Position numbers and translations under genes: made by a program | The notes under the pieces: model-generated | Database searches by the model: none | What the model saw: only the letters and a program-made list of their open reading frames with translations | What the model was told of the DNA's origin: nothing | From: Corallococcus sp. EGB | Lineage (GTDB): Bacteria; Myxococcota; Myxococcia; Myxococcales; Myxococcaceae | Direction: 5' to 3' | Length of the DNA stretch: 64,000 nt | Assembly: GCF_019968905.1 (NCBI RefSeq) | Contig: NZ_CP079946.1 | Span: 2,232,001-2,296,000, forward strand | Shown: positions 31,020 through 48,120 of the stretch, one piece after another | Numbering within the stretch: position 1 is the first letter of the stretch | Layout of the letters: each line of letters begins with the position of its first letter

Positions 31020-31634
31020 TCACCGTGCCTCCCGTTCGAGGGGGAAGCCGTGCTTGGCGGCGCCGCCCTCAACGACGCGAGCGTCCTCCGGCCGGAGGAC
31101 GACGAAGACGAGCTTTGCGAGGGCGTCGCGCTGCTCCGGCGACCTGGCCCGAAGGTGCTCGTGGACGGCGCCCATCATGGCGTCCACCGAAGCAACCGGC
31201 CCCAGGCCACCGGCGCCGGCTCCGAGGAGCGGCGTCGCCAGGATGAACTGCCCCGAGAGGTCGTTCTCGGTGGCGAGCGATGCGGCCGCATCGAGGAATG
31301 CGCGCACGCAGGAACCAATGCGGCGCGGGCCCGAGAGGACTCCGGTCTCCGGGTCTCGCTTCCGATAGTCGACTGCCGGCACATGCAGCACCCAGCGGAA
31401 GGCGGTGCTGGTGCCCGCTGACGTAACCAGGCAGTCGTCCGGCTCGAGCTCCGCGTCGAAGTCCTCCTCGAGCCGCTCGCGAAGCTCCTGCTGGAAGGCG
31501 GCACCGCCGCAGGCCTCGCGGAGCGCGCCCGAGACGCCGATTCCGAGGGCGACGCTCGGGTTGGAGGCGTTGACGACGGCATGCGCACCGATGGCTGGGT
31601 CGACGAGCGAGCCGGTGTAGACGCCGAGCTTCAT
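31020..31634 (-). CDS. Macro-domain protein
   Basis: A 204-aa protein with a macro-domain fold signature: HAVVNASNPSVALGIGVSGA matches the conserved VNAAN...GGGVAGAI loop that binds ADP-ribose. A second phosphate-loop-like region, ATPLLGAGAGGLGPVASVDA, corresponds to the catalytic GxGxxG loop. Macro domains read or remove ADP-ribose from proteins or nucleic acids. This is the last gene of a leftward five-gene set that shares its control region with the helicase/PLD/CARF operon. The start at 31634 lacks a strong ribosome site. It may counteract or sense ADP-ribosylation in a conflict setting (inference). Confidence 0.75.
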   Translation of the reverse strand: MKLGVYTGSLVDPAIGAHAVVNASNPSVALGIGVSGALREACGGAAFQQELRERLEEDFDAELEPDDCLVTSAGTSTAFRWVLHVPAVDYRKRDPETGVLSGPRRIGSCVRAFLDAAASLATENDLSGQFILATPLLGAGAGGLGPVASVDAMMGAVHEHLRARSPEQRDALAKLVFVVLRPEDARVVEGGAAKHGFPLEREAR

Positions 31635-31646
31635 TCGCCAACCCTA

Positions 31647-31847
31647 CTACGCCCTTCCGCGCAGCATCGAAGTCGCGGCCTTCCCGACGACGACCAGGGT
31701 CCCGCCGCTCGCGACGATGAGACCCTCGGTTGCGATGGCGCAGGCCAACGCACCTCCGGTCGCGACGACCGCGATGCCGCCAGCGATGCCCAGGGCAAGC
31801 TTCTCGCCATCGGACCGCCGGTCCCACCAGCGCGCGAGGCTGCTCAT
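31647..31847 (-). CDS. Small membrane protein (66 aa)
   Basis: It starts MSSLARWWDRRSDGEKLALG, then a glycine-rich hydrophobic hairpin (IAGGIAVVATGGALACAIAT and LIVASGGTLVVVGKAATS). The start codon overlaps the end of the preceding gene by 4 nt (ATGA), showing translational coupling. It has no known family. It is one of four consecutive small hydrophobic proteins. Confidence 0.6.
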   Translation of the reverse strand: MSSLARWWDRRSDGEKLALGIAGGIAVVATGGALACAIATEGLIVASGGTLVVVGKAATSMLRGRA

Positions 31848-32062
31848 CGCGCGCCTCCCTTCCCGGACTTCTCGCCAACGGCGCCCTCGACGGCGCCCCC
31901 GATAGACGCTCCGACCGCCGCACCGATGGGACCACCGAGGACCGAATCCACCACGCCCCCGATGGTGGCGCCGACGCCCGCCGAGATTCCGCGACGACGG
32001 TGCTCCTCGGGTACATGCTGCAGCGCCTCTTCCGCGTGCTTCGTCAGCTCGTTCTTCTGCAT
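31844..32062 (-). CDS. Small glycine-rich protein with glycine-zipper segments (72 aa)
   Basis: ATG 32062 (MQKNELTKHAEEALQHVPEE) has AAGGAG 9 nt upstream. An earlier ATG at 32080 overlaps the previous stop but has no ribosome site. The C-terminal half is a glycine zipper (ISAGVGATIGGVVDSVLGGP, IGAAVGASIGGAVEG). Such segments insert into membranes and oligomerise. Function unknown. Confidence 0.6.
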   Translation of the reverse strand: MQKNELTKHAEEALQHVPEEHRRRGISAGVGATIGGVVDSVLGGPIGAAVGASIGGAVEGAVGEKSGKGGAR

Positions 32063-32076
32063 GTGCTCGTTCTCCT

Positions 32077-32346
32077 TCATCCGAAGATCGACCTGGCGAC
32101 TCGGTACGCGCCGTACCCGACGCCGGCAGTGACGGCCGCGCCTGCCACGACCGGACCGCCGACGGCGGCGATGCCCACCGACAGCGCAGGCCCGCCGAGG
32201 CCGACCGAGCCCGCGAGCATCTGCGCCACCGCGTAGCCCCCGAGGTTCGCGGCGGGGCCCGACAGCGCCGCCGTCGCGCCAACGAGGCTCGCGCCCGTTC
32301 CGCCGCCCGCAACCAAACCCGCGATCTTTGCCTTGTGCTTGCTCAT
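32077..32346 (-). CDS. Gly/Ala-rich membrane protein (89 aa)
   Basis: MSKHKAKIAGLVAGGGTGAS is followed by three hydrophobic Gly/Ala segments (SLVGATAALSGPAANLGGYA; VGLGGPALSVGIAAVGG; VVAGAAVTAGVGYGAYRV). It has a basic N-terminus and a short C-terminal RSIFG. It lies 12 bp after the preceding gene. No family is recognised. Possible membrane-pore or zipper role by composition only. Confidence 0.6.
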   Translation of the reverse strand: MSKHKAKIAGLVAGGGTGASLVGATAALSGPAANLGGYAVAQMLAGSVGLGGPALSVGIAAVGGPVVAGAAVTAGVGYGAYRVARSIFG

Positions 32347-32358
32347 GGTGTCCTCCCC

Positions 32359-32742
32359 TCAGGCCGCAGCCCGTTCCTCGCCGAAGTACGCGTCCGCCGC
32401 CCAGCCGACCGCCTCCGTCAGCGCAGCAGCCGTCGATGCGTTGATCGCGTTGCCCCAGCCCGGCACCCATCCGACGAGCCACTGGCTGATGCCGCGCCCG
32501 ACGTGCGTCGCGGTGAACGTCAGCAGAAGGTCGGCGGCGGCGGCCTTGGTGATCGCCGCACCATGCTCGTGGGCGATGGCGATGATCATCGTCGTCTGGA
32601 GGCCCGCGAGGACCGGCGCATCCGAGCCGGGGATCTGCGCGAGGCCCGCACCGACGGCGGCGGCGGCGGTAGCGGCGGTGTGAACGATGCCGTGGACCTT
32701 CTGGTTCGTCGTCAAAGCGGTGGTCTTGCTGTTCGTCGGCAT
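32359..32742 (-). CDS. YcjF/DUF697-like membrane-associated protein (127 aa)
   Basis: First gene of the leftward arm, with GAGGAGT 8 nt before ATG 32742. The protein has VHGIVHTAATAAAAVGAGLA, IPGSDAPVLAGLQTTMIIAI, and GWVPGWGNAINASTAAALTE ending in AVGWAADAYFGEE. This pattern resembles the C-terminal DUF697 domain of YcjF and of GTPase-associated membrane proteins, with the conserved IPxxD, GxxN and TEAxGW features. It probably associates with membranes. There is no GTPase domain here, so a partner would be needed. Confidence 0.6.
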   Translation of the reverse strand: MPTNSKTTALTTNQKVHGIVHTAATAAAAVGAGLAQIPGSDAPVLAGLQTTMIIAIAHEHGAAITKAAAADLLLTFTATHVGRGISQWLVGWVPGWGNAINASTAAALTEAVGWAADAYFGEERAAA

Positions 32743-32792
32743 GGCGGGTGACTCCTCTCGGGGGACTGCTCCATCGCAGCCGACGAGCCACT

Positions 32793-32809
32793 TCGCATGC
32801 TCCGTGCCG
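32793..32809 (-). promoter_or_regulatory. Sigma-54-type promoter for the leftward arm
   Basis: On the minus strand the sequence reads CGGCACGGAGCATGCGA, against consensus TGGCACG-N4-TTGC. The invariant GG (32808-32807) and GC (32796-32795) are exactly 10 bp apart. The predicted start near 32783 would leave a 40-nt leader before ATG 32742. Confidence 0.55.
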
Positions 32810-33011
32810 AGCGCCTGGTGTGCTGCAACCTGTTGATATTGCTGGCGGAACGCGAACGACTGCGGCTGCGATGCGCCGGTTTGTGCTGGTGCATCAGCAA
32901 TTCTCCGCCTGGTTGCTCAATCGGCATGTTTTTGCCCACATATCAGCAGTAAAATGCCGACGTGACCTTCGCGAGCGCGCCAAGTGGCGGAATTTCGGCG
33001 ATTTCGCTGGC

Positions 33012-33027
33012 TGGCACCGTCCTTGAG
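33012..33027 (+). promoter_or_regulatory. Sigma-54-type promoter for the rightward operon
   Basis: TGGCACCGTCCTTGAG keeps the -24 block TGGCAC and the correct 10-bp gap to the -12 block, where GA replaces the ideal GC. The predicted start near 33038 is just ahead of the GGAGG at 33040. The 200 bp between the two promoters contains TGGCGGAA twice as direct repeats (about 32843 and 32984), candidate activator sites. Confidence 0.5.
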
Positions 33028-33050
33028 ATGGGCGGCTGCGGAGGTTCGCC

Positions 33051-33377
33051 ATGCTCGCCTACGAAACCGATCGTCGACCGACGCAGCACTACAAGGCCCG
33101 CGCTGCCGAACGCGCACTTCGCTCAGACGTCGAGGAGTTCCTGATGACGTGGGGGACCGAGATACGCGCCGCCGGCGCGACGCACATCACGCTGGTCCGG
33201 CGCGACCTGCCCGTCGACCTGCAGGACAGCGAGGAAGCGGTTCGAGCCGAAGGCTGGATCGTCGTCGCTGGCGACGACGGCTCCCTGGTCACCTGCTATC
33301 GGAGAAACGACGCGTGGCGGTTCGTTCGCCGCAAGAGCCATATGCGCCCGCGTCGGCGTTCCAGGAGGGCCGCCTGA
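33051..33377 (+). CDS. 108-aa protein, first gene of the helicase/PLD/CARF operon
   Basis: ATG 33051 has GGAGG 6 nt upstream. The protein is basic, with a predicted alpha/beta core: TQHYKARAAERALRSDVEEF, THITLVRRDLP, WIVVAGDDGSLVTCYRRND and AWRFVRRK. The last block (a beta-strand followed by TCYRRND and RFVRR) resembles the C-terminus of small RelE/BrnT-like toxins, but similarity is too weak to assign. The C-terminal tail is Arg-rich. The next gene starts 1 nt after the stop, so they are coupled. It could be a small nucleic-acid-binding adaptor or toxin. Confidence 0.65.
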   Translation: MLAYETDRRPTQHYKARAAERALRSDVEEFLMTWGTEIRAAGATHITLVRRDLPVDLQDSEEAVRAEGWIVVAGDDGSLVTCYRRNDAWRFVRRKSHMRPRRRSRRAA

Positions 33378-33378
33378 C

Positions 33379-36180
33379 ATGCTCGTCCAACGCATCGCCC
33401 TGCTCGCCGAGCGCCTCGGCATCCCGTTGCCTCGCATCGCAGGCCAGACGCGCCTCGGGCTGTCCGGGACCATCCGGGTCACCCGACCGGTGCCGCTGAT
33501 CTTCACGCAACGCGCGGATGAGCAGATCGCGGAGGTCGACCCTGGCCTCGCGCGCGCCGGTCTCATCGACGCCATGAGCGCCTCCCACGTCTGGACGTGG
33601 CTCGAGGTTCGCGGTGCCGAGGGGCGATGGCGTTGGCCGGAGCTGGGTGACGAGCCCGACGTGCTCGCTCGCTGCAGCGAGGGCGACCTCCCCTCGCAGG
33701 GCTTCTCGGTCCTCCTCTCGACGGCTCGCTGGTCGCTGCGCTGCGTACCGGCCCGCGACGGGAGCGGCCTCCTCGTTCTGGGCGTGCTCAAGCCTCGCCG
33801 TGCACCGTGCGCCAGGCTGTTGGTCGCGTCCTTCGGCGACGGCGCCGACGCCAGTTTCGACACGAAGGGCATGTGCACATTGGTCGCGTCCCAGACGCGG
33901 GTGCGCGTACGCGTCGATCAGCGAGAGGTCGAGCGTCAGGCGAACGACGACCGCGACTTCATCACCGGCGTGCGTCGATACCTCGAGGCGCTCCGAAACC
34001 ATGCCGTCTCCTCGACGCCGCGTGCGAAGTACAAGCTCGTCGAACGCGCTCCGGTTCGACTCCGCACGCTCGACGCTGATGCGTGGCCCCGAGCGTTCAC
34101 GCGGCCCGGGACGCTGCTTCAGATCCTCACGGGACCCGACCAGGTTCGCACGCTGCCGATCCTCGACGTCTCCGACGACGGCGACGTCCTCACGATGGAC
34201 GGTGACGACGAGCGCGGCGAGCTGCTCGAGCAGGGAGAGCTGAAGGTTCGGCCCGGTGATGACTCCCTCCGGCGCATGCGCGAGGCACTCGACATGATCG
34301 CGATGGGTACCGACGAGGCGCATGGGCGTCTTCTCGCTGCTCTGACCCACCCCGAGTCGCTGCAAGACCTGCCTCGCTCCGAGAACGCGCCCGCCGACGA
34401 ACAGACTGCTCGTCAGCAGCAGGCGAAGGACCTGGCTCTGAACACGCCGGAGATCGCGCTCATCCACGGCCCGCCCGGCACGGGGAAGACGACCGTCATC
34501 TGCGGCATCGTCGAGGAACTCGTGAAGCGTGGCCAGCGCGTTCTCCTTGTCGCGCCGACGCACGTCGCGCTCGACAACGTTCTCGAGCGCGTTGGAGATC
34601 GATCCGGCGTCACGGCGATTCGCCTTGGCTCACCGGACAACGTCGAGGAGCAGGCCCATCGGTTCCTCCTCCAGCACCGGAGCCGAGATCTGACCCGCCA
34701 TCTCGCGAAGGACCTCCGTGCGGCCACCACTGAGGCGCCGTCGGATGATCCTGTCGTGGCCGTTCAACGTGAGTGGGCTGGGCGCATCGCCAATGACGAG
34801 GAGGCCGGCACGCTGCTCCTCCTCAACGCGAACCTCGTGTGCGCGACGCCCATCGGCATCGCGATGGCGCGCGAGTTCCGTGAGGTCGAGGTCGTCTTCG
34901 ACGTGATGATTCTGGATGAGGCCAGCAAGGCGACCATCACCGACTTCCTCGTGCCCGCCGCGCGCGCGCGGAAGTGGATCTTGGTCGGGGACCATCGGCA
35001 GCTCGCGCCGTACGTCGACCTTGGCGAGTTGGAGGCGGTCGTCTCGGAGCGGGTAAAGCGCGCCGGTGTCGAGGAGCCTGATGCGAGTTGGGTGCGCGAA
35101 CTCAGCACGCGGCTCCGGCAGCACTTCGACAACCGCATGCACCCAGAACCGAAGCGGGTCGCGGACGCATGGCGTGACCTCGTCGACGAGCTGACCCACC
35201 GGTTCGAGATCGACGACCCGACGTTCGACGAGCTCGTGGCGCTAGGAGCCGACCCCGACAAGTGGCGCGAGGCCTCTCGCGCGGCATCCCGCTCCAGCGG
35301 CGATGCGGGGGCGACGAAACGAGCGATGGTACTTCGTCTCGGCGCCGAGCTCCTCGAACTGCAGGCGCTCGCGCTCCCGAGCGTGTTCGAGCACCTCACG
35401 CGCCTCCCTGAGAGCCGGGCCGTGCGCTTGAACTTCCAGCACCGAATGGCGCCGGCCCTGGCATCGTTCTCGTCGGAGCTGGTGTACGGCGGCGACTATC
35501 CTTCGGCGCCGGAGACCGCGAAGCTCGGTCTCGACATCCCGAGCCTCGAAGCTCCAGCCATCTGGATCGACACTGCGTATGCGCCCGCCGCGCGCCGCTA
35601 CGAGCACCCTCGAGACCGAGACTGGTCGGGCGGCGACTACATCAACCCCCTCGAGGTCGACGTCGCAGAGGAGCTTGTGGAGGCCTGCGCGACGTGGGCC
35701 GTCCAGAGCTGGCGCGGCGATCCTCGCGAGCGCGGTCGCGGCGCCGACGCACCGTTCGAGATCGGCGTTACGTCCTTCTATCTGAAGCAGGCGCTCCAAC
35801 TGCGCGATGCCATCTTTCGTAGGCTCGCGAGCGGCACCGACCCGTGGCGCCGGCGATGGAAGAGCCCTGCTGCGAACGGCGCCCCCATCGACATCCACGT
35901 GAGCATCGTCGACAGGTTCCAGGGGCGAGAGAAGGATCTCATCATCCTCTGCACGACGCGCAGCAACCCGAAGGGCCGTCGGGGGCACGTTGACAATCTC
36001 AACCGCCTGAACGTCGCGGTCACTCGCGCTCGGCACAAGCGCATCGTCATCGGCGACTCGACGACGCTCGCAGGGCAAGGCGACGGTCGCCGCAGGCGGC
36101 CCGGGGACCTGCTGGTCCGGCTGTACGAGACCAGCGAGCAAAAGAAGAAGTGGGGACGCGCGCTGGGAGGTCGATCGTGA
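33379..36180 (+). CDS. Upf1-like SF1 helicase/nuclease-associated ATPase
   Basis: A 933-aa protein. An N-terminal domain of about 340 aa has no recognised match. SF1 motifs follow: Walker A IHGPPGTGKTTVICGI (G364-T371), Ia VLLVAPTHVALDNV, motif II VMILDEASKA (D513-S516), motif III ILVGDHRQLAPY, motif IV VRLNFQHRMAPALASF, motif V SIVDRFQGREKDLIIL (D845 on) and motif VI LNVAVTRARHKRIVI (N878 on). DEAS and the VDRFQG block place it with the Upf1/IGHMBP2 (COG1112) helicases that translocate on RNA or ssDNA. Pairing with a PLD-family gene recalls the Mokosh and DISARM defence systems. A large insertion sits between motifs III and IV. Confidence 0.88.
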   Translation: MLVQRIALLAERLGIPLPRIAGQTRLGLSGTIRVTRPVPLIFTQRADEQIAEVDPGLARAGLIDAMSASHVWTWLEVRGAEGRWRWPELGDEPDVLARCSEGDLPSQGFSVLLSTARWSLRCVPARDGSGLLVLGVLKPRRAPCARLLVASFGDGADASFDTKGMCTLVASQTRVRVRVDQREVERQANDDRDFITGVRRYLEALRNHAVSSTPRAKYKLVERAPVRLRTLDADAWPRAFTRPGTLLQILTGPDQVRTLPILDVSDDGDVLTMDGDDERGELLEQGELKVRPGDDSLRRMREALDMIAMGTDEAHGRLLAALTHPESLQDLPRSENAPADEQTARQQQAKDLALNTPEIALIHGPPGTGKTTVICGIVEELVKRGQRVLLVAPTHVALDNVLERVGDRSGVTAIRLGSPDNVEEQAHRFLLQHRSRDLTRHLAKDLRAATTEAPSDDPVVAVQREWAGRIANDEEAGTLLLLNANLVCATPIGIAMAREFREVEVVFDVMILDEASKATITDFLVPAARARKWILVGDHRQLAPYVDLGELEAVVSERVKRAGVEEPDASWVRELSTRLRQHFDNRMHPEPKRVADAWRDLVDELTHRFEIDDPTFDELVALGADPDKWREASRAASRSSGDAGATKRAMVLRLGAELLELQALALPSVFEHLTRLPESRAVRLNFQHRMAPALASFSSELVYGGDYPSAPETAKLGLDIPSLEAPAIWIDTAYAPAARRYEHPRDRDWSGGDYINPLEVDVAEELVEACATWAVQSWRGDPRERGRGADAPFEIGVTSFYLKQALQLRDAIFRRLASGTDPWRRRWKSPAANGAPIDIHVSIVDRFQGREKDLIILCTTRSNPKGRRGHVDNLNRLNVAVTRARHKRIVIGDSTTLAGQGDGRRRRPGDLLVRLYETSEQKKKWGRALGGRS

Positions 36181-37604
36181 AGGCGCCCGAGCTGAAGACC
36201 ATCGCCGCCTCGCTCGGGGACGCAGGTGCGCCGGGACTGCCGACCGTCGTGCTCACGCGTGAGGTGCCGCTCTTCGAGGTCGAGTTCGCGGCGCTTGAGT
36301 TCGCTGAGGAAGCGAAGCTTCCGTCGAGCAACTGGGCTGCGCTCGCGTTGGCCCGCGCCCTCGGCGAGCTGTCGCCGGCTGATGTAGATGCGTACCTCGG
36401 GCTCGGCGAGGCTGTGTCCGAGGGGCTCGTGCGCCGCCTGCTCGACGAAGGGCTGATCGAAGAACGCGCCGACGAGCACGTACAGGCGGCGAAGCCCGCG
36501 GAGGACTCCGGCATCGGTGGCTTCTTCCGTCGCCTCTTCGGCGGTTCGACGGCGCATCCCGTCGAAGCCGTCGCGCCGCCAAGCCGCGTGCAAACGGCTG
36601 CGCGCAAGCTACGCGAGTCTCGCGCATCCAGTACCCCGGTGTGCCGACTCAGCACCGGTGGCGCGCAGGCGCTTGAGCGAGGCGCAGTTGCACAGCGTCG
36701 CGTGCGGCCCGCACGCCTGCTCTTCCTGGCCGAGCCGCTCCTCTTCCTGGGCGTGGTCGATGAGAAGCGCCAGCGACACACGCAGCATCGGCGGCCGAAC
36801 GCGCTCGAGCCCGAGCGCGTTCCCGGCGCGTTCCAGGTGCTCGACGCGACGTTCGCGCTGCCCCCGAGCGAGCGGCTCGGAGCCTGCGGCATCGAGGCGA
36901 ACATACGCGGGTTCTCGGGTCAGTTCGTCGGCATCGTGCCCGGCGCTCAGTGGGAGGTCCGGCAGATGGAGCGCCGGAGCAACAAGGGGCGCGAGGCGCA
37001 GATGGCGCTGTTGGTCCTTGCTGCGTTCCCCTCGTCCGACGCGGACGGGCTCACTTGGCGTGCGTACTTGCGCCAGCAGGATCAAACGCAGGACTGCCCG
37101 CACATCGACGCCGCCTGCTTCCTTCACGAGGACCTGCGCTCGCTCACGTCGCTCCTGAGCGTCATCGAGGGCGATGGAGCGCTTCCGACTCAAGCAGGGC
37201 TTCGTGGCGACGGCGCCTTCGATCTCCGCTGCGATGAGACTCTCTTGCCGAGCCTGCTCGGCGAAGCGGACCGCCCCGCCGACACGTTCCTTCCGGCGCT
37301 GGCCCCAGGCTGGTGGGTCGGCGTTCGCGCGCACGCATCGCCCACCGACATCCATGCGGGGCGCGCAGCCTTCTACGACTTCCTTCGTCGACGCGACGCC
37401 AACCTCCGACGCGACTTCGATGGCACCTGCGCGGAGGTCGCGACGAACCTGATCTCGTACTGGGGCGAGAACCCCGGACTTCCCTCGGCCGACGAGGCCG
37501 CGATCAACCTGTGGGTGAGAGCCGAGCTCCGCGCTGCTCTCTGCATGCGTCGACGCCATCGCGACCTTGTTGCCCCGTATGAGCCCATGGAGCCTGCCCG
37601 ATGA
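36177..37604 (+). CDS. Unknown 475-aa protein between the helicase and PLD genes
   Basis: GTG 36177 overlaps the helicase stop (GTGA), indicating tight coupling. The first roughly 90 residues look like a winged-helix or tandem helical region (WAALALARALGELSPADVDA, EGLVRRLLDEGLIEERADEH). A linker containing GIGGFFRRLFGG follows, then a conserved-looking C-terminal domain: RLLFLAEPLLFLGVVDEKRQ, IRGFSGQFVGIVPGAQWEV and FYDFLRRRDANLRRDFDGTC. No catalytic motif is recognised. By position it is likely an adaptor or substrate-recognition partner of the helicase and nuclease. Confidence 0.75.
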   Translation: MKAPELKTIAASLGDAGAPGLPTVVLTREVPLFEVEFAALEFAEEAKLPSSNWAALALARALGELSPADVDAYLGLGEAVSEGLVRRLLDEGLIEERADEHVQAAKPAEDSGIGGFFRRLFGGSTAHPVEAVAPPSRVQTAARKLRESRASSTPVCRLSTGGAQALERGAVAQRRVRPARLLFLAEPLLFLGVVDEKRQRHTQHRRPNALEPERVPGAFQVLDATFALPPSERLGACGIEANIRGFSGQFVGIVPGAQWEVRQMERRSNKGREAQMALLVLAAFPSSDADGLTWRAYLRQQDQTQDCPHIDAACFLHEDLRSLTSLLSVIEGDGALPTQAGLRGDGAFDLRCDETLLPSLLGEADRPADTFLPALAPGWWVGVRAHASPTDIHAGRAAFYDFLRRRDANLRRDFDGTCAEVATNLISYWGENPGLPSADEAAINLWVRAELRAALCMRRRHRDLVAPYEPMEPAR

Positions 37605-39205
37605 ACGACGAGATGACGGCCCAGCGGGAGACGCCCGCGAGCGCGAGCGACGCGACGAGGGTTTACCTCGGCGAGCAGCGTGTGAAGGGCGTGGTCTTCG
37701 TTCCTGCGCCCGCTGCGCAACCGGCTCCGCATCGCCTCCACGACACGCGGCGTCGAGACGTCCTCCACGTTTCGACCGACGACCTGACCCGAACGGCGCA
37801 CATCCGGCGAGCGCTGGTGGAGCAGATCGCCGAGGCGAAGCAGAAGGTCCTGTTCTGCAGCTTCCTCTTTGTCGACGAGGAGATCGTGCGCGCGCTTTGC
37901 GAGGCTGCGGAGCGCCTTCACGGCGGTGTCTACGTTCTCACCGCGCTCGGGAAGCACCTGCGCGCAGAGGTGCTCGAGCCGAACTCCGACGTCGATGCCA
38001 ACACAGCCAAACTCCAAGACCGCGCGAAGCGTCACGAGGACCATCTGCAGCGCCTCGCACACGCGGGCGTGTGGCTGCGGAGCGCCGAGGACTGCCATGC
38101 GAAGTTCTGCGTGGTCGACGATGCATGCGCGATCGTCACCTCTGCCAACGCGACGCAGGAGGCCTACGAGTCGAACCCCGAGGACGGACTTATAGTCCTC
38201 GATTCACAGGCCGCTCGGGAACTCGGGCGCCTCTTCGCGCACGTCTGGCAGTACCTCTCGACGCTCGAATCAACGCCCGGCGCTAGGCTCGACGTTCGCT
38301 CGCTCACCAGCGCGCGCGCACTCGAGTGGCGGGCGCTGGCAGGCGCCGACGCACTACGACCGGTAACGACCCTCCGCAGCCAGGAGGCGTCGCTTCGCGA
38401 TGCGGCCATCGAGGTCATCGATCGCGCCAAGGATCATCTCGCCATCGCGACGTACAGCTTCATGGGAGTGGAGGAGCATCCAATTGGGGCTGCTCTGGCG
38501 CGAGCACTGGCGAGGAATGTTCGGCTCGACCTGCTCGTCCAGCCTCGGAACCACATCGATGCGCAGAGAGCGTCCCTGGCGTGGCTGGTCGGGCTCGCAC
38601 CGGAGCGGGTGCGGCTCTACGGGCATCGCCGCACGCACACCAAATCGATCGTCGCGGACGGCCAGGCTGCGCTCTTGTGGACGGGAAATCTCGAGGCCCG
38701 GCACGGTTGGGACAACGGCATCGAGGTCGGCGTACTCGTCGAGGACGCCGGCGTCGCGTCGGCGGTGGTGGGCTGGACGGGAGACGTCATGCGGCGGGCG
38801 ACGCACTTCGCCTTGAACACGCCCACGGTGCGCGAGCTCGTGGACGCAGGCCAGCCGCCTGCCCTGGCCGGCGAGTGGACCGTGAAGCTGCCCGCCGGTG
38901 CGCAGAAAGCCGCTGCCGCGCAGGTGCTCTCCCGGAACCCTGTCGAACTGCTCGAAGTGCAGGGCGCCCTCGTACTGAGGTGCGGAGACGAGATGCTCTT
39001 CGACATCCGCGTCGACGAGGCGAGCCGACGGATCGACGTTGTGCGGACCCGGCGCGTCGAGGGGCTCATGGGGAGCCGGAGCAAGGGATGGCTCGCGACC
39101 ACCGTGCTTCACGTGGTCGCTGCGCCGCCACCACCGCCCTCGCAAGGCCGACCGCCACAGCAACAACCGCAACAACGTAGAAGATCGAAAGGACGGCGCC
39201 GATGA
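37601..39205 (+). CDS. Phospholipase D-family protein with two HKD motifs (putative nuclease)
   Basis: A 534-aa protein whose ATG overlaps the previous stop (ATGA). The N-terminal HKD half has VLFCSFLFVDEEIVRALCEA and H166-A-K168...D173 in CHAKFCVVDDACAIVTSANA. The second has LAIATYSFMGVEEHP, H346-T-K348...D353 in THTKSIVADGQAALLWTGN and the acidic partner in WDNGIEVGVL. Both HxK(x4)D motifs are intact, so one active site can form within a single chain. In bacterial conflict operons, such PLD proteins paired with helicases are usually nucleases. A phospholipase role cannot be excluded. The C-terminus is a P/Q-rich then Arg/Lys-rich tail, suited to nucleic-acid contact. Confidence 0.85.
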   Translation: MNDEMTAQRETPASASDATRVYLGEQRVKGVVFVPAPAAQPAPHRLHDTRRRDVLHVSTDDLTRTAHIRRALVEQIAEAKQKVLFCSFLFVDEEIVRALCEAAERLHGGVYVLTALGKHLRAEVLEPNSDVDANTAKLQDRAKRHEDHLQRLAHAGVWLRSAEDCHAKFCVVDDACAIVTSANATQEAYESNPEDGLIVLDSQAARELGRLFAHVWQYLSTLESTPGARLDVRSLTSARALEWRALAGADALRPVTTLRSQEASLRDAAIEVIDRAKDHLAIATYSFMGVEEHPIGAALARALARNVRLDLLVQPRNHIDAQRASLAWLVGLAPERVRLYGHRRTHTKSIVADGQAALLWTGNLEARHGWDNGIEVGVLVEDAGVASAVVGWTGDVMRRATHFALNTPTVRELVDAGQPPALAGEWTVKLPAGAQKAAAAQVLSRNPVELLEVQGALVLRCGDEMLFDIRVDEASRRIDVVRTRRVEGLMGSRSKGWLATTVLHVVAAPPPPPSQGRPPQQQPQQRRRSKGRRR

Positions 39206-40995
39206 CGACGATCGGTGTGTCGTGGGTGTCGTTCAACAACGACCCCTACGAGCGAGAGAAGGACGGCAGGTACCGCGAGCGGGACGGCGAGAAGACCCGG
39301 GGCCCGACGCTCGAGTTCCTCTTCAACGCCGCATCGCCTGTCGCCGGCCGCGTCAAGAAGCACTACCTGCTCGTGCGTCGTCCTCGGAGTCCCGAGCCAG
39401 GCGAACGGCGTGTGGATCCTCGGGAGTCCGACGTCGTCGAGGCGTTGGTCACCGAGCTCGAGCAGCAGAAGGGGGCACCGGAGGTGAGCATCGTGTGGTG
39501 GGACACGGACGCTCCACCCACCGACCATCGAGAGCTGTTCGTGTTCACCGCAAGGGCCCTCGCCGACATCCGGCGAGAGAACCCGCGAGCGGACCTGGTC
39601 GTGAACCTGAGCCCTGGCACGCCGGCTGCGCAGACGGTGATGCTCCTCGCCCTGCAGGCGCGGCTCGCTGGTGACAACGTGCGGGCCTTCCAAGGAACCC
39701 CTCGTGACAAGCGTCGCGACCCAAACGATGTAGTCCGCGAGGTCCCATGGAACCTGCTCGCCGAACTGGCGGCGACGCCCACGGAGATCAACGACGCGAG
39801 CACGCGACCCGCTGCGTGGAGTCTCGAGCACGCGCGTTCACCTCGCCTCCGCGAGGTAGCTGCGCTCGTGAGCCAGTACGGAGGCGTCCCCTTCCCGGTG
39901 CTCATCATCGGCGCGCGAGGGACCGGCAAGACCGAGGTCGCCGAGCGGCTTCGCAGGGGGTTCCGCGAGTCGCTCGTGCAGTCTCCATCCGAGTCCGAGT
40001 GGCACTTCAAGCTCAACTGCGCGGAGTTCCGCGGTGACGCGAACATGCTGAGGAGCGCGCTGTTCGGGCACGTGAAGGGCGTCCACAGTCAGGCGTTCAA
40101 GGATGAAGCTGGCCTCTTCGAGAAGGCGGCCGATGACTGTGTGTTTCTCGACGAGATCCACTGGATGGACCCGCAGGCGCAGGGACTGCTCCTCGTCGCG
40201 CTCCAGCGCAACGGGAGTTTCCGTCGACTCGGCGGCGAAGAGCCGATCCCGGCGAAGTTCCGGTTGGTCGCCGCGACAAACCAACCGCGCAACGTCCTGC
40301 GCGAAAAGCTGACCCCCGACTTCCTCGATCGCATCTCGGACCTGGTGATCGAGTTGCCGGAGCTTCGCGACTGCCGCGAGGACCTCGGGGACATCTGGAA
40401 GTCCGTGGTGCGGCGCGCGTGTGAGGAACTTGTGCAGCGCGACCCAGCGCGCGCGATCGGCCGAGGGACTGGCGCAGCGCGCGTCGACGATCTCGTCGCG
40501 GAGTTCCAGCCCCACCACGCTCGCATCGAGCGGGCCATCAGCGCCATGCGGCTCGCAGGCAACTTCCGCGATCTCGAGAAGCTTGCTCGGCGTCTGCTCG
40601 TCGGCGGGCTCGCGCGAGGCCGCTTCCTCTCGTTGAAGGAGGAACTCGTGCGCACTGAGCTCGAGCGCCTCCGCAAGGACGAGCGCGCGGACGCGGAGCA
40701 GGGGGCCGGCCCTGCGACCACGCTCGTCGACGAACTGCCCACGGTCGCCCGCTGCGAGGACTATCTCCGCGAGGTGCGCGACGCCGGAACAGTTCTCCCT
40801 GGACCGGCGGCCGTCGATGAGTGGGAGCGACGGCTGCTTGTGGCGGCTCACGCGGTCGGCGGCAGCGGCGCCAAGGCAGCCGCGCTGCTTGGCATGAACG
40901 CCCGCACCTACAACGCGAAGATGGAGAAGTGGGCCGTTGCTTCGACGCACGTGAACGGCGGGAAGCGCCGTCGCTCGGCCTCGGACTTCGAATAG
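39202..40995 (+). CDS. CARF-like sensor fused to a sigma-54-activator-type AAA+ and Fis HTH (RtcR-like)
   Basis: A 597-aa protein whose ATG overlaps the PLD stop. Residues 1 to about 195 are a Rossmann-like CARF domain: TIGVSWVSFNNDPYER, EFLFNAASPV, VSIVWWDTD, and the signature strand-loop DLVVNLSPGTPAAQTVMLLA (residues 132-151). The AAA+ domain has Walker A GARGTGKT (237-244), NCAEFRGDANMLRSALFGHV, Walker B VFLDEIHW (D317-E318) and the R-containing RLVAATNQPRNV. The GAFTGA loop of sigma-54 activators is GVHSQA (293-298) here. The C-terminus has a Fis-type HTH (GGSGAKAAALLGMNARTYNA). RtcR has the same order. It likely senses a nucleotide or RNA-end ligand and activates the two sigma-54-type promoters at 32.8-33.0 kb. 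The stop codon lies in a hairpin. Confidence 0.85.
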   Translation: MTTIGVSWVSFNNDPYEREKDGRYRERDGEKTRGPTLEFLFNAASPVAGRVKKHYLLVRRPRSPEPGERRVDPRESDVVEALVTELEQQKGAPEVSIVWWDTDAPPTDHRELFVFTARALADIRRENPRADLVVNLSPGTPAAQTVMLLALQARLAGDNVRAFQGTPRDKRRDPNDVVREVPWNLLAELAATPTEINDASTRPAAWSLEHARSPRLREVAALVSQYGGVPFPVLIIGARGTGKTEVAERLRRGFRESLVQSPSESEWHFKLNCAEFRGDANMLRSALFGHVKGVHSQAFKDEAGLFEKAADDCVFLDEIHWMDPQAQGLLLVALQRNGSFRRLGGEEPIPAKFRLVAATNQPRNVLREKLTPDFLDRISDLVIELPELRDCREDLGDIWKSVVRRACEELVQRDPARAIGRGTGAARVDDLVAEFQPHHARIERAISAMRLAGNFRDLEKLARRLLVGGLARGRFLSLKEELVRTELERLRKDERADAEQGAGPATTLVDELPTVARCEDYLREVRDAGTVLPGPAAVDEWERRLLVAAHAVGGSGAKAAALLGMNARTYNAKMEKWAVASTHVNGGKRRRSASDFE

Positions 40996-41981: not shown

Positions 41982-42248
41982 TCAGCCCACCAGTTTCTTG
42001 AGGAGCGCCATCCCGCGTTCGGCCTCGGCCGGCGTCGCGTCGGAGAGCTCGAGGTACACGCGGCCGCGGGCGTCGTAGAAGCTCTCGGTCTGCACCACCC
42101 ACCGCTCGCGCTCGGGCGTGGCCAGTTCGACGTCGGCGGCGAGCTTGTGGAGCGCGGCGCTCACGAGGCGATGGCTGGTCCCCTTCGGGAGGCGGATCTT
42201 GATCTGCGGCTCGAGGCTACCGTAGCGGCTCTCGCCCTGGCTCACCGT
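41982..42248 (-). pseudogene. Truncated duplicate of the 47818-48120 phage gene
   Basis: It encodes SRYGSLEPQIKIRLPKGTSH through MALLKKLVG, about 95 percent identical in DNA to 47818-48084. The match stops at GGCTCACCGT (42248), where the 5' end and ribosome site are lost and unrelated sequence of the toxin-like cassette begins. Confidence 0.8.
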
Positions 42249-42487
42249 TGCCCGGTGGGCCTTTGTCGCACCAGAGGAAGTGGGTACGCTGGGTGGAGCA
42301 CTCCCATGCCCTCGGGCCCCATGACAGAGAGGAAGCCTACGCTGGCGAGTCACGGCGGTTGCACGAGGTGTCGGGTCGCCCCACCGCCGAGAGGAGTGTA
42401 CGTGCTCTCGAGAGTCCATGAGGCCGTGGCGAGACAGGGAAGGGCTGATTCTTCGGAGGGTACGCACCAGAAGGCGAGGTACACCCC
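42249..42487 (+). promoter_or_regulatory. Upstream region of the SitBAI-like cassette
   Basis: A 239-bp non-coding stretch between the truncated duplicate and the cassette start. GAGG sits 8 nt before ATG 42488. I see no clear -35/-10 or sigma-54 element. Confidence 0.3.
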
Positions 42488-43858
42488 ATGACATCCGTGT
42501 GGGGAATGGTGCTTCTGCTGGTGACACAAGCCCCAGGAGTGGACGGGCCGGTCGAAGGGGCGGAGCCCCTGGCCACTCCGGCCGAAGCCGAGCTGGGAGT
42601 GGAAACACCGCCCGCAGCAACGCGCGAGGGAAGAGGGTGGGAGTACCTCATCCGCCTGGAGACGAGCACGCTGGTGCTGCAGGCACGAGGAGGCGCGGGA
42701 GAGCAGGTGGGCTATGCGCAGCTGAGCCCGATGCTGCTGGTGGACGGAGGCGAGGAGTTTGGAGTCAACGTGGGCGCTCCCGTGAGGTTGCGGCTGTGGG
42801 GCGGCGAGGCGAGCGCAGGGTGGGTGCGCGAGGAGGACTGGGACAGTCTGTCGGACTGGGGGCAGCTGGTGCACGCCCTGAAGCTGGGCTCGGACAAGTC
42901 CCCGGTGGGGCTGTGGGTGGGAGCGCTGGACAGCTACAGCCTTGCTTCAGGGCACCTGGTGCGGCGCTACTCCAACCGGGCCAACCCGGACTACCACCCG
43001 GCGGGAGCCTCCCTCACGGGTGCCGTGGGCCCCTTGTATGTGGAGGCCTTCGCCTCGGACGTACTGGGCGCGCGCCTCATGGGGGCGCAAGCCGAGTTGG
43101 ATGTGGCGCACGTCTTCACCGGCCCGCCGAGGCAGCGGGGGCGCTACACCCTGGCACTGTCGGCGGTGCATGAGTGGGGCAGGGCCGGGGGTAAGTCACC
43201 GCCGGTGACGCTGGCGCACCTGGACGGGACAGCGGTGGTGGTGGTGCGCCGGGGCTTTGAGGCGCACCTGCTGGCCGGCTGGGGCGGGCGGCCGGGAGTG
43301 GGCGGCGCGTGGGGCCTGGTGGCGGGAGTGGGAGCGGACGCGGTGACGAGTACGCTGGACACGAAGTTGCGGCTGGAGGTGCGCCGGCAGCACGGCGGCT
43401 TCCGACAAGGCTTCTTCGGCCCAGACTACGAGCTGGCACGCTTCCGGGCCGCGGGCCCCGAGGGCGTGCCTCTGGCCGAGGCGTCCTTTCCGGACAGCTT
43501 CTCTGTCTACGGCGAGGCGGTGGTTGGCTGGGATGCCGTGCACTACGGCGGGCTGCAACGGCACTTGCAGCTGTCGCTGGGCGCGGAGGCCTTCACCTGG
43601 GGCCGCTTGGACGTGGACGGGCGCGTGGCGGTGCAGGTGTGGGGCCGCAACGTGGAGGTGGCCGTGAAGGGGCTGGCGGTGGGCCTGGGACAGCCTGGGG
43701 TGCGCTACCTTGCAGCGGCGGAGATGCGGTGGCGCTTTCTCGGGGGGCGCCTGTACGCGCTGGGCACGGGAGGGACGCAGCTGTTTCCAGAGGAGGTAGG
43801 GACACTCCGGCCGGGGGCCTACGCCTCGGTGGGGCTGGGGGTAGACAATGCGCGCTGA
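42488..43858 (+). CDS. Exported outer-membrane beta-barrel-like protein (SitB position)
   Basis: A 456-aa protein with an N-terminal signal peptide (MTSVWGMVLLLVTQAPGVDG). From residue 50 onward it shows alternating hydrophobic strands with Gly and aromatic residues typical of transmembrane beta-strands: EYLIRLETSTLVLQA, PVRLRLWGGEASAGW, RYTLALSAVHEWGRA, FEAHLLAGWGG, HLQLSLGAEAFTWGRLDVDG, ending in YASVGLGVDNAR. No lipobox. It overlaps the next gene by 11 bp. By position it corresponds to SitB, the accessory gene of SitBAI loci. I assign by arrangement, not by sequence match. Confidence 0.65.
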   Translation: MTSVWGMVLLLVTQAPGVDGPVEGAEPLATPAEAELGVETPPAATREGRGWEYLIRLETSTLVLQARGGAGEQVGYAQLSPMLLVDGGEEFGVNVGAPVRLRLWGGEASAGWVREEDWDSLSDWGQLVHALKLGSDKSPVGLWVGALDSYSLASGHLVRRYSNRANPDYHPAGASLTGAVGPLYVEAFASDVLGARLMGAQAELDVAHVFTGPPRQRGRYTLALSAVHEWGRAGGKSPPVTLAHLDGTAVVVVRRGFEAHLLAGWGGRPGVGGAWGLVAGVGADAVTSTLDTKLRLEVRRQHGGFRQGFFGPDYELARFRAAGPEGVPLAEASFPDSFSVYGEAVVGWDAVHYGGLQRHLQLSLGAEAFTWGRLDVDGRVAVQVWGRNVEVAVKGLAVGLGQPGVRYLAAAEMRWRFLGGRLYALGTGGTQLFPEEVGTLRPGAYASVGLGVDNAR

Positions 43859-47817: not shown

Positions 47818-48120
47818 TCACCCCAGCAGCTTCTTGAGGAGCGCCATCCCGCGCTCGGCCTCGGCCGGCGTCGCGTCGGAGAGCTCGAGGTACACGCGGC
47901 CGCGGGCGTCGTAGAAGCTCTCGGTCTGCACCACCCACCGCTCGCGCTCGGGCGTGGCCAGCTCGACCTTGGCGGCGAGCTTGTGGAGCGCGGCGCTCAC
48001 GAAGCGGTGGCTCGTCCCCTTCGGGAGCCGGATCTCGATCTGCGGCTCGGGGCTACCGTAGCGGCTCTCGCCCTGGCTCACCGTCTTCGTCGCCTGCGTG
48101 TTCTTCGTCGTCGTGCTCAT
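47818..48120 (-). CDS. Small phage protein (100 aa), intact copy
   Basis: MSTTTKNTQATKTVSQGESR, then PQIEIRLPKGTSHRFVSAAL, HKLAAKVELATPERERWVVQ, TESFYDARGRVYLELSDATP and a helical end MALLKKLLG. Alpha/beta composition; no known domain. A truncated duplicate lies at 41982. The repeated phage leader element is 47 nt upstream. It may be a small DNA-binding or regulatory protein, but this is not shown. Confidence 0.65.
   Translation of the reverse strand: MSTTTKNTQATKTVSQGESRYGSPEPQIEIRLPKGTSHRFVSAALHKLAAKVELATPERERWVVQTESFYDARGRVYLELSDATPAEAERGMALLKKLLG

Follow-up and report, generated by a model that had tools for sequence, protein, structure and literature searches.

A probable bidirectional sigma-54-type control region between divergent gene groups in Corallococcus sp. 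EGB

What controls transcription out of a 308-bp gap (positions 32743–33050) that divides a minus-strand gene group from a plus-strand operon in Corallococcus sp. EGB? A preliminary description of the surrounding 64-kb stretch of DNA (hereafter, the window) proposed that the gap is a bidirectional control region of the sigma-54 type, operated by the regulator that is encoded last in the plus-strand operon. The open reading frame list and profile scans place the following genes on either side of the gap.

31020–31634, minus strand: macro-domain protein (Pfam-type domain scan)
31647–31847, minus strand: 66-aa small protein (open reading frame)
31844–32062, minus strand: glycine-zipper-like protein of ~72 aa (start inferred; taken from a longer open reading frame)
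32077–32346, minus strand: 89-aa glycine-rich, membrane-like small protein (open reading frame list)
32359–32742, minus strand: 127-aa protein at the head of the minus group, with a Minicystis homologue at the same place
33040–33044, plus strand: GGAGG, ribosome-binding-site-like (direct reading of the sequence)
33051–33377, plus strand: p108, a small protein that heads the plus operon and occurs in all five myxobacterial-type loci
33379–36180, plus strand: SF1 helicase, MkoA-like, 933 aa (profile matches)
36150–37604, plus strand: 484-aa protein (p484) of no family, with a marginal MkoB match only
37601–39205, plus strand: PLD-family protein, DrmC-like (profile matches)
39202–40995, plus strand: CARF-AAA+-HTH regulator (RtcR_PspF1 family), last gene of the plus operon, with GVHSQA replacing GAFTGA

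The host genome contains one rpoN match and an IHF-family gene that scores above its cut-off; in M. xanthus, rpoN is reportedly essential (PMC12316311). Homologues of p108 also occur in Massilia and in genome G083. The AlphaFold2 model of p108 has a pLDDT of 72 and gave no match at E ≤ 0.001 in a PDB structure search, and one p108 homologue (L052) matches BrnT/DUF4258 at E = 3.4e-4, below the cut-off; we therefore treat a BrnT/DUF4258 identity as a lead only. Just downstream of the operon, open reading frames at 41982–42620 and 47818–48120 (minus strand), ~6 kb apart, have near-identical ends (SQGESRYGS...GMALLKKL), probably a duplication.

Relatives of the locus were collected in several ways. 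A scan of genome contigs returned five loci: L002 (Minicystis rosea), L003 (Corallococcus sp. AS-1-6), L004 (uncultured delta), L005 (Massilia phyllostachyos), and L006 (a Methylococcales MAG). Among 195 genomes of the phylum, six matched at E ≤ 1e-40: the window's own, the close orthologues G096 and G088 (the latter treated as the same as L003), and the distant G094, G083, and G064. Searches by PADLOC family at E ≤ 1e-90 added G360 (2 of 369 matched) and G755 (2 of 349), the other match in each case being Massilia's own genome. No relatives were found on plasmids and viral contigs, nor at E ≤ 1e-70 in the 311 genomes of the order of the Methylococcales MAG, where the query also missed the known broken copy. 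Counts omit L009 (on the contig of L003), L007 (the window itself), the Minicystis paralogue loci L055–L058, and L006, whose contig starts inside the helicase, offers no upstream DNA, and carries a broken regulator. This last locus (L006:3655–4726) retains the order helicase–p484–PLD–regulator, but the regulator is divided between two frames and is missing most of its AAA+ domain.

Two outward-facing promoter-like elements

The preliminary description located one -24/-12 element on each side of the gap, and both are present where it placed them.

32793–32809, minus strand: -24/-12 element CGGCACGGAGCATGCGA, with GG and GC present and a predicted start at ~32783
33012–33027, plus strand: -24/-12-like element TGGCACCGTCCTTGAG, with GG present, GA replacing GC, and a predicted start at ~33038

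The exact 10-bp GG-to-GC spacing that had been ascribed to both holds for the minus element; the plus element has GA and thus no GC. Similarity to a consensus says little here: TGGCACNNNNNTTGCW with two or fewer mismatches occurs at 20 sites in the window versus 24.2 expected (i.e., no excess), and TGGCACNNNNYTTGM has six matches in the host's own genome versus seven for the reversed pattern, again no excess. Under a promoter score in which GG and GC were, by choice, given double weight, 45 sites in the window reach 12 or more, three of them within the gap (0.45 expected; 5 of 500 shuffles). Because consensus matching in a GC-rich window gives no evidence, the case for sigma-54 rests on conservation in relatives.

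We compared the DNA upstream of p108 in five loci (the window, L002, L003, L004, and G096), which are few and whose regulators are 79 to 92% identical to each other. Pairwise identity over the whole gap is 56 to 75%. In the alignment, the GG and GC of the minus element are kept in all five loci, and the plus element reads TGGCAC[CT][GC]TCCTTGAG throughout, keeping GG and always carrying GA at -12; in both elements, GG at -24 and the correct spacing are found in all five. The proposal of a two-way sigma-54-type region thus withstands the check suggested earlier, conservation in homologous loci. The distance between the two elements is 202 to 204 bp, and that from the plus element to the p108 start 39 to 41 bp, in 5/5 loci. 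Mean scores over the alignment are 13.0 of 15 for the minus element (matched by 0 of 1,000 column shuffles) and 12.0 for the plus element (1 of 1,000). Invariant columns make up 14 of 16 positions of the plus element, against 102 of 318 overall (hypergeometric, 4e-6), the strongest of the stretches tested; for the minus element the count is 9 of 17, a borderline result (P = 0.055) that weighs against a sigma-54 reading.

A second minus-strand candidate, TGGCTCGTCGGCTGCG at 32790, scores as high as the minus element and was rejected, its GG/GC being lost in the other loci. Likewise, TTGAGA was set aside as a sigma-70 -35 element, having no partner element.

That both elements are chance matches in GC-rich DNA, with conservation that has another cause, would agree with the lack of any consensus excess in window or genome; the column shuffles, together with the IHF-like site and the Massilia layout described below, make this very improbable.

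According to the accessible text of PMC4551910, 96% of sigma-54 promoters keep the C of the -12 GC, a base that restrains basal transcription; measured against that figure, the GA of the plus element counts against sigma-54 use. Because of this restraining role, leakage from the plus promoter can reasonably be guessed at, though it is no result, and it would not be a general rule, since both G755 and G360 have a canonical -12 in front of an operon that ends with the regulator gene. A search of the host's own genome found a near-copy of the plus element, TGGCACGGTCCTTGAT, 94 bp upstream of the rpoN match. In aligned upstream regions of 10 Myxococcaceae, TGGCACnnTCCTTGA lies before rpoN without mismatch in seven, and TTGGCACGGTC[CT]TTGA in nine (seven with TCC, two with TCT), the tenth reading TTGGCACGAATTTTGT. 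Upstream of the host's own rpoN (L001:1390–1440) this appears as a TTGGCACGGTCCTTGA-type element, shared by 9/10 aligned Myxococcaceae; it is possibly a sigma-54 autoregulatory site with a variant -12. Exact TGGCACNNTCCTTGAGAT was found in 3 of the 195 phylum genomes (the window's, G088, and G096), the same three that have the regulator or a close orthologue, and with up to one mismatch in 24 of 195, the extra sites falling mostly inside long open frames. A genome-wide regulon sharing the plus element was considered and dropped, as own-genome matches beyond this locus and rpoN also lie mostly inside long open frames.

These observations bear on an unlikely, though not far-fetched, alternative: that only the minus promoter is productive, the plus GA element being a holding site for sigma-54 (a roadblock or autoregulatory site, maybe as before rpoN) and the plus operon being read from an unrecognised promoter. 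GA in 5/5 plus elements and TTGA before rpoN in 9/10 genomes would fit such a site; so would the IHF-like sites of the window's gap, none of which falls on its plus side. The plus element also lies 24 bp from the p108 ATG, leaving an inferred leader of 13 nt, a short one that speaks against a working sigma-54 promoter. Against this alternative stand the fixed distance to the p108 start and the conservation of the plus element, the strongest of those tested, and no sigma-70-like site was found in 32650–33150.

Candidate activator sites between the elements

Paired TGGCGGAA repeats had been put forward as activator sites. They are present at 32843 and 32985, but the exact octamer is absent at the equivalent positions of the four other loci, and, judged by the alignment, three 16-bp dyads are better enhancer candidates.

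32826–32838, minus strand: IHF-consensus site TATCAACAGGTTG, with no second exact match anywhere in the 64 kb (0.09 expected)
32884–32899, no strand: candidate enhancer dyad 1, TGCTG-N6-CAGCA (alignment and dyad counts)
32922–32937, no strand: candidate enhancer dyad 2, CGGCA-N6-TGCCC, whose distance to dyad 3 is 22 bp and whose register is the same in five loci
32944–32959, no strand: candidate enhancer dyad 3, CAGCA-N6-TGCCG, with two relatives reading CGGCA-N6-TGCCG

In the five-locus alignment, the three best-conserved dyads with a gap of 6 start at 32944, 32884, and 32922 (the last tied with one at 32873); dyad 3 has 21 of 25 arm pairs, a count that none of 1,000 column shuffles reached. 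Gaps of 8 and 11 also score high in this alignment (20/25), both overlapping the same sites. Tests for dyads and IHF sites were extended to nine loci: the window, L002, L003, L004, G096 (L008/L050), L005, L090, L049, and L051 (L052 and L053 were scanned for -24/-12 elements and lie outside these counts). Here, perfect 5-6-5 dyads number 9 versus 2.4 expected (0 of 200 shuffles), the gap of 6 having been picked after viewing examples; across gaps of 3 to 13, only a gap of 4 gives a further hint (5 versus 2.4; 13 of 200), to which nested copies of these sites contribute in part. At least one perfect 5-6-5 dyad occurs in 7/9 loci; none was found in Corallococcus sp. AS-1-6 or the delta locus, which counts against the dyads. 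The arms track the type of HTH: G360 and G755, with similar C-termini, have CGGGT arms, and the window group and Massilia, again with similar C-termini, have arms that are mostly of the GGCA type.

The IHF-like site sits between the minus promoter and the dyads. The consensus is exact in three of the nine loci (0.09 expected) and has no more than one mismatch in six (1.3 expected), with 0 of 300 shuffles as high; it is exact in Minicystis and differs by one mismatch in the delta locus. Neither an exact nor a one-mismatch site was found in Corallococcus sp. AS-1-6, G096, or G360, which counts against the use of IHF.

In Massilia, a symmetric two-way region (L005:9472–9703) lies between p92, a p108 homologue on the minus strand, and the regulator gene on the plus strand, whose product is 60% identical to that of the window. 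Its order is as follows: outward minus element TGGCACGCTTTTCTCT, exact IHF-type site, exact dyad TGCCAGATAATTGGCA, exact IHF-type site, outward plus element TGGCATAGAGATTGCG. As far as sequence goes, this matches the symmetric arrangement that we envisage for the window. The plus element is ~300 bp from the regulator start, implying a long leader, and at -12 the element in front of p92 carries TC in place of GC, which counts against a sigma-54 promoter there. Taking GA in five loci together with TC in Massilia, the element on the p108/p92 side has a variant -12, and the other element GC, in 6/6 two-way loci.

Thus, the best explanation for the gap is probably a bidirectional, enhancer-dependent sigma-54 control region. 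The general proposal of the preliminary description stands with respect to conserved elements at a fixed spacing and gives way on three counts: the plus GC, the repeats as activator sites, and a straightforward fit of the regulator. In the mechanism that we envisage, sigma-54 RNA polymerase would wait at a pair of outward promoters: a canonical promoter, with GC at -12, would serve the macro/membrane group, and a variant promoter, with GA in that place, would serve p108–helicase–p484–PLD–regulator. The regulator, made from the last plus gene, would bind the 16-bp dyads (32884–32959); upon sensing its ligand it would form a ring and remodel the polymerase at each promoter, and IHF would bend the DNA at 32826–32838 towards the minus promoter. 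As one of the two controlled operons contains the regulator gene, the arrangement would act as a positive feedback switch, and the GA at -12 may leak, supplying the sensor before induction.

A regulator without the GAFTGA loop

The claim that promoter and regulator fit each other is only partly true. The regulator matches the PADLOC RtcR_PspF1 profile over its full length (515 bits; residues 3–576; profile positions 4–467 of 468) and has a sigma-54 interaction AAA+ domain (PF00158, 1.3e-30). In an alignment of 11 regulators, its Walker A and Walker B motifs seem intact, as do the sensor and arginine regions, and its C-terminus is HTH-like. What is missing is GAFTGA, the sigma-54 contact motif. 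The L1 loop reads GVHSQA in the window; GAHSQA in Minicystis, Corallococcus sp. AS-1-6, the delta locus, and G096; and GSHSTA in Massilia, so that GAFTGA is absent, and G[VAS]HS[QT]A present, in 6/6 (the window and the five close relatives in which the AAA+ domain can be read). Distant relatives carry the motif: G360 and G755 (whose regulators are 27 to 28% identical to that of the window), G094, and G083 have GAFTGA. The G064 regulator (L053:7384–9069) has GAFTDA instead, and the C-termini of G083 and G064 are divergent.

The L1 loop touches sigma-54 and the -12/-11 DNA (accessible parts of PMC7175178 and PMC7057263), and in PspF only Tyr can replace the Phe of GAFTGA (PMC2941729, as far as its accessible text goes). 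The available portion of PMC3162934 excludes proteins lacking GAFTGA from the sigma-54 activators, naming TyrR, DhaR, and HupR as sigma-70 dependent; by this rule, the window regulator would not be a sigma-54 activator. It may therefore have left sigma-54 as TyrR and DhaR did, acting at the dyads as a sigma-70 activator or a repressor, with the -24/-12 elements being remnants or belonging to another activator. Such published cases of GAFTGA loss, along with a motif replaced in 6/6 while the ATPase motifs are retained, lend this reading some weight. Yet the dyads persist in the group that lost GAFTGA, and so do the -24/-12 elements at their spacing, where remnants ought to decay; moreover, the same source, in the part available, writes position 4 of the motif as Thr/Ser, and so the change from T to S may be tolerated. 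We consider departure from sigma-54 distinctly unlikely, and favour, without claiming proof, G[VAS]HS[QT]A as a working variant loop over promoters that are served in another way.

Among the relatives that bear GAFTGA, -24/-12 elements are good in G755 (TGGCATCTCTCTTGCT) and G360 (TGGCATGTATATCGCT). The element of G094 is weak (AG, not GG), and neither in G083 nor in G064 was a convincing element found ahead of the regulator gene; both results count against the sigma-54 reading.

Across loci, p108 and the regulator accompany the gap, and other genes vary. The plus operon of Minicystis is like that of the window (helicase 87%, p484 80%, and PLD 77% identical). In L003, L004, and G096 (L050), the regulator directly follows p108, and the minus side holds a PP2C–kinase–helicase series headed by a VWA gene (Pfam domains from L003). 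Since the window regulator is equally close to those of G096 (84%) and Minicystis (83%) despite their differing gene sets, this suggests that gene cargo is exchanged around a fixed control module.

Relation to known systems and implications

This kind of control has been anticipated. Such CARF proteins were proposed in 2014 to be sigma-54 activators of adjacent restriction genes (PMC4012209), a proposal later extended to CoCoNuT systems with small BrnT-like genes nearby (PMC11090510), and for E. coli rtcBA an enhancer and a -24/-12 element are known, together with an IHF site (PMC9650030), all as given in the accessible portions of these sources; the kind is, therefore, already known. The window shares with E. 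coli rtcR/rtcBA its CARF-AAA+-HTH regulator and has candidates for these three DNA features, and differs in having a -24/-12-like element on both sides, other target genes, and one variant -12. Its regulator also differs from E. coli RtcR in lacking GAFTGA and in scoring 138 bits against the NCBIfam RtcR equivalog, whose cut-off is 650, and neither RtcA nor RtcB was found among the 10 window proteins scanned.

With the RtcR-like CARF regulators of restriction and CoCoNuT systems (PMC4012209 and PMC11090510, in their available parts) the window has in common the type of regulator and a small head gene, and its relatives share with them TerY-P and helicase neighbours. Those parts give no promoter, enhancer, or IHF sequence and no variant L1 loop, and the cargo of the window is instead helicase–p484–PLD. 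TyrR, DhaR, and HupR are, like the window regulator, bEBP-like and without GAFTGA (PMC3162934, accessible text), whereas the conserved alternative loop of the window adjoins conserved -24/-12 elements. As to Mokosh, the helicase matches MkoA (320 bits) and the PLD protein matches MkoB weakly (34 bits); the helicase match is partial (about half of the profile), and the window has extra genes, a regulator, and a divergent arm. An McrB-type GTPase and a coiled-coil nuclease, taken here to define CoCoNuT membership (in part after PMC11090510), were both absent from the 10 window proteins scanned. In the literature searched, with few subscription papers within reach, we found no description of this control DNA, of the two-way layout, or of the variant loop.

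A broader proposal is more tentative, and we regard it as possible but doubtful: a clade of CARF activators would drive sigma-54 polymerase through a re-built loop, at two-way promoters with a leaky variant -12, in a module swapped among defence-type gene sets across Myxococcota and Massilia.

Control of defence by CARF/RtcR-type proteins via sigma-54 has been predicted since 2014, and here the candidate target DNA is laid out: two promoters, dyads, and an IHF-like site. A loop without GAFTGA beside conserved -24/-12 elements calls into question the sorting of sigma-54 activators by motif alone, and the L1 loop, which reportedly contacts the -12 region, is found together with a -12 variant at one of the two promoters. 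The control module would also provide a handle on the inducing signal of such systems.
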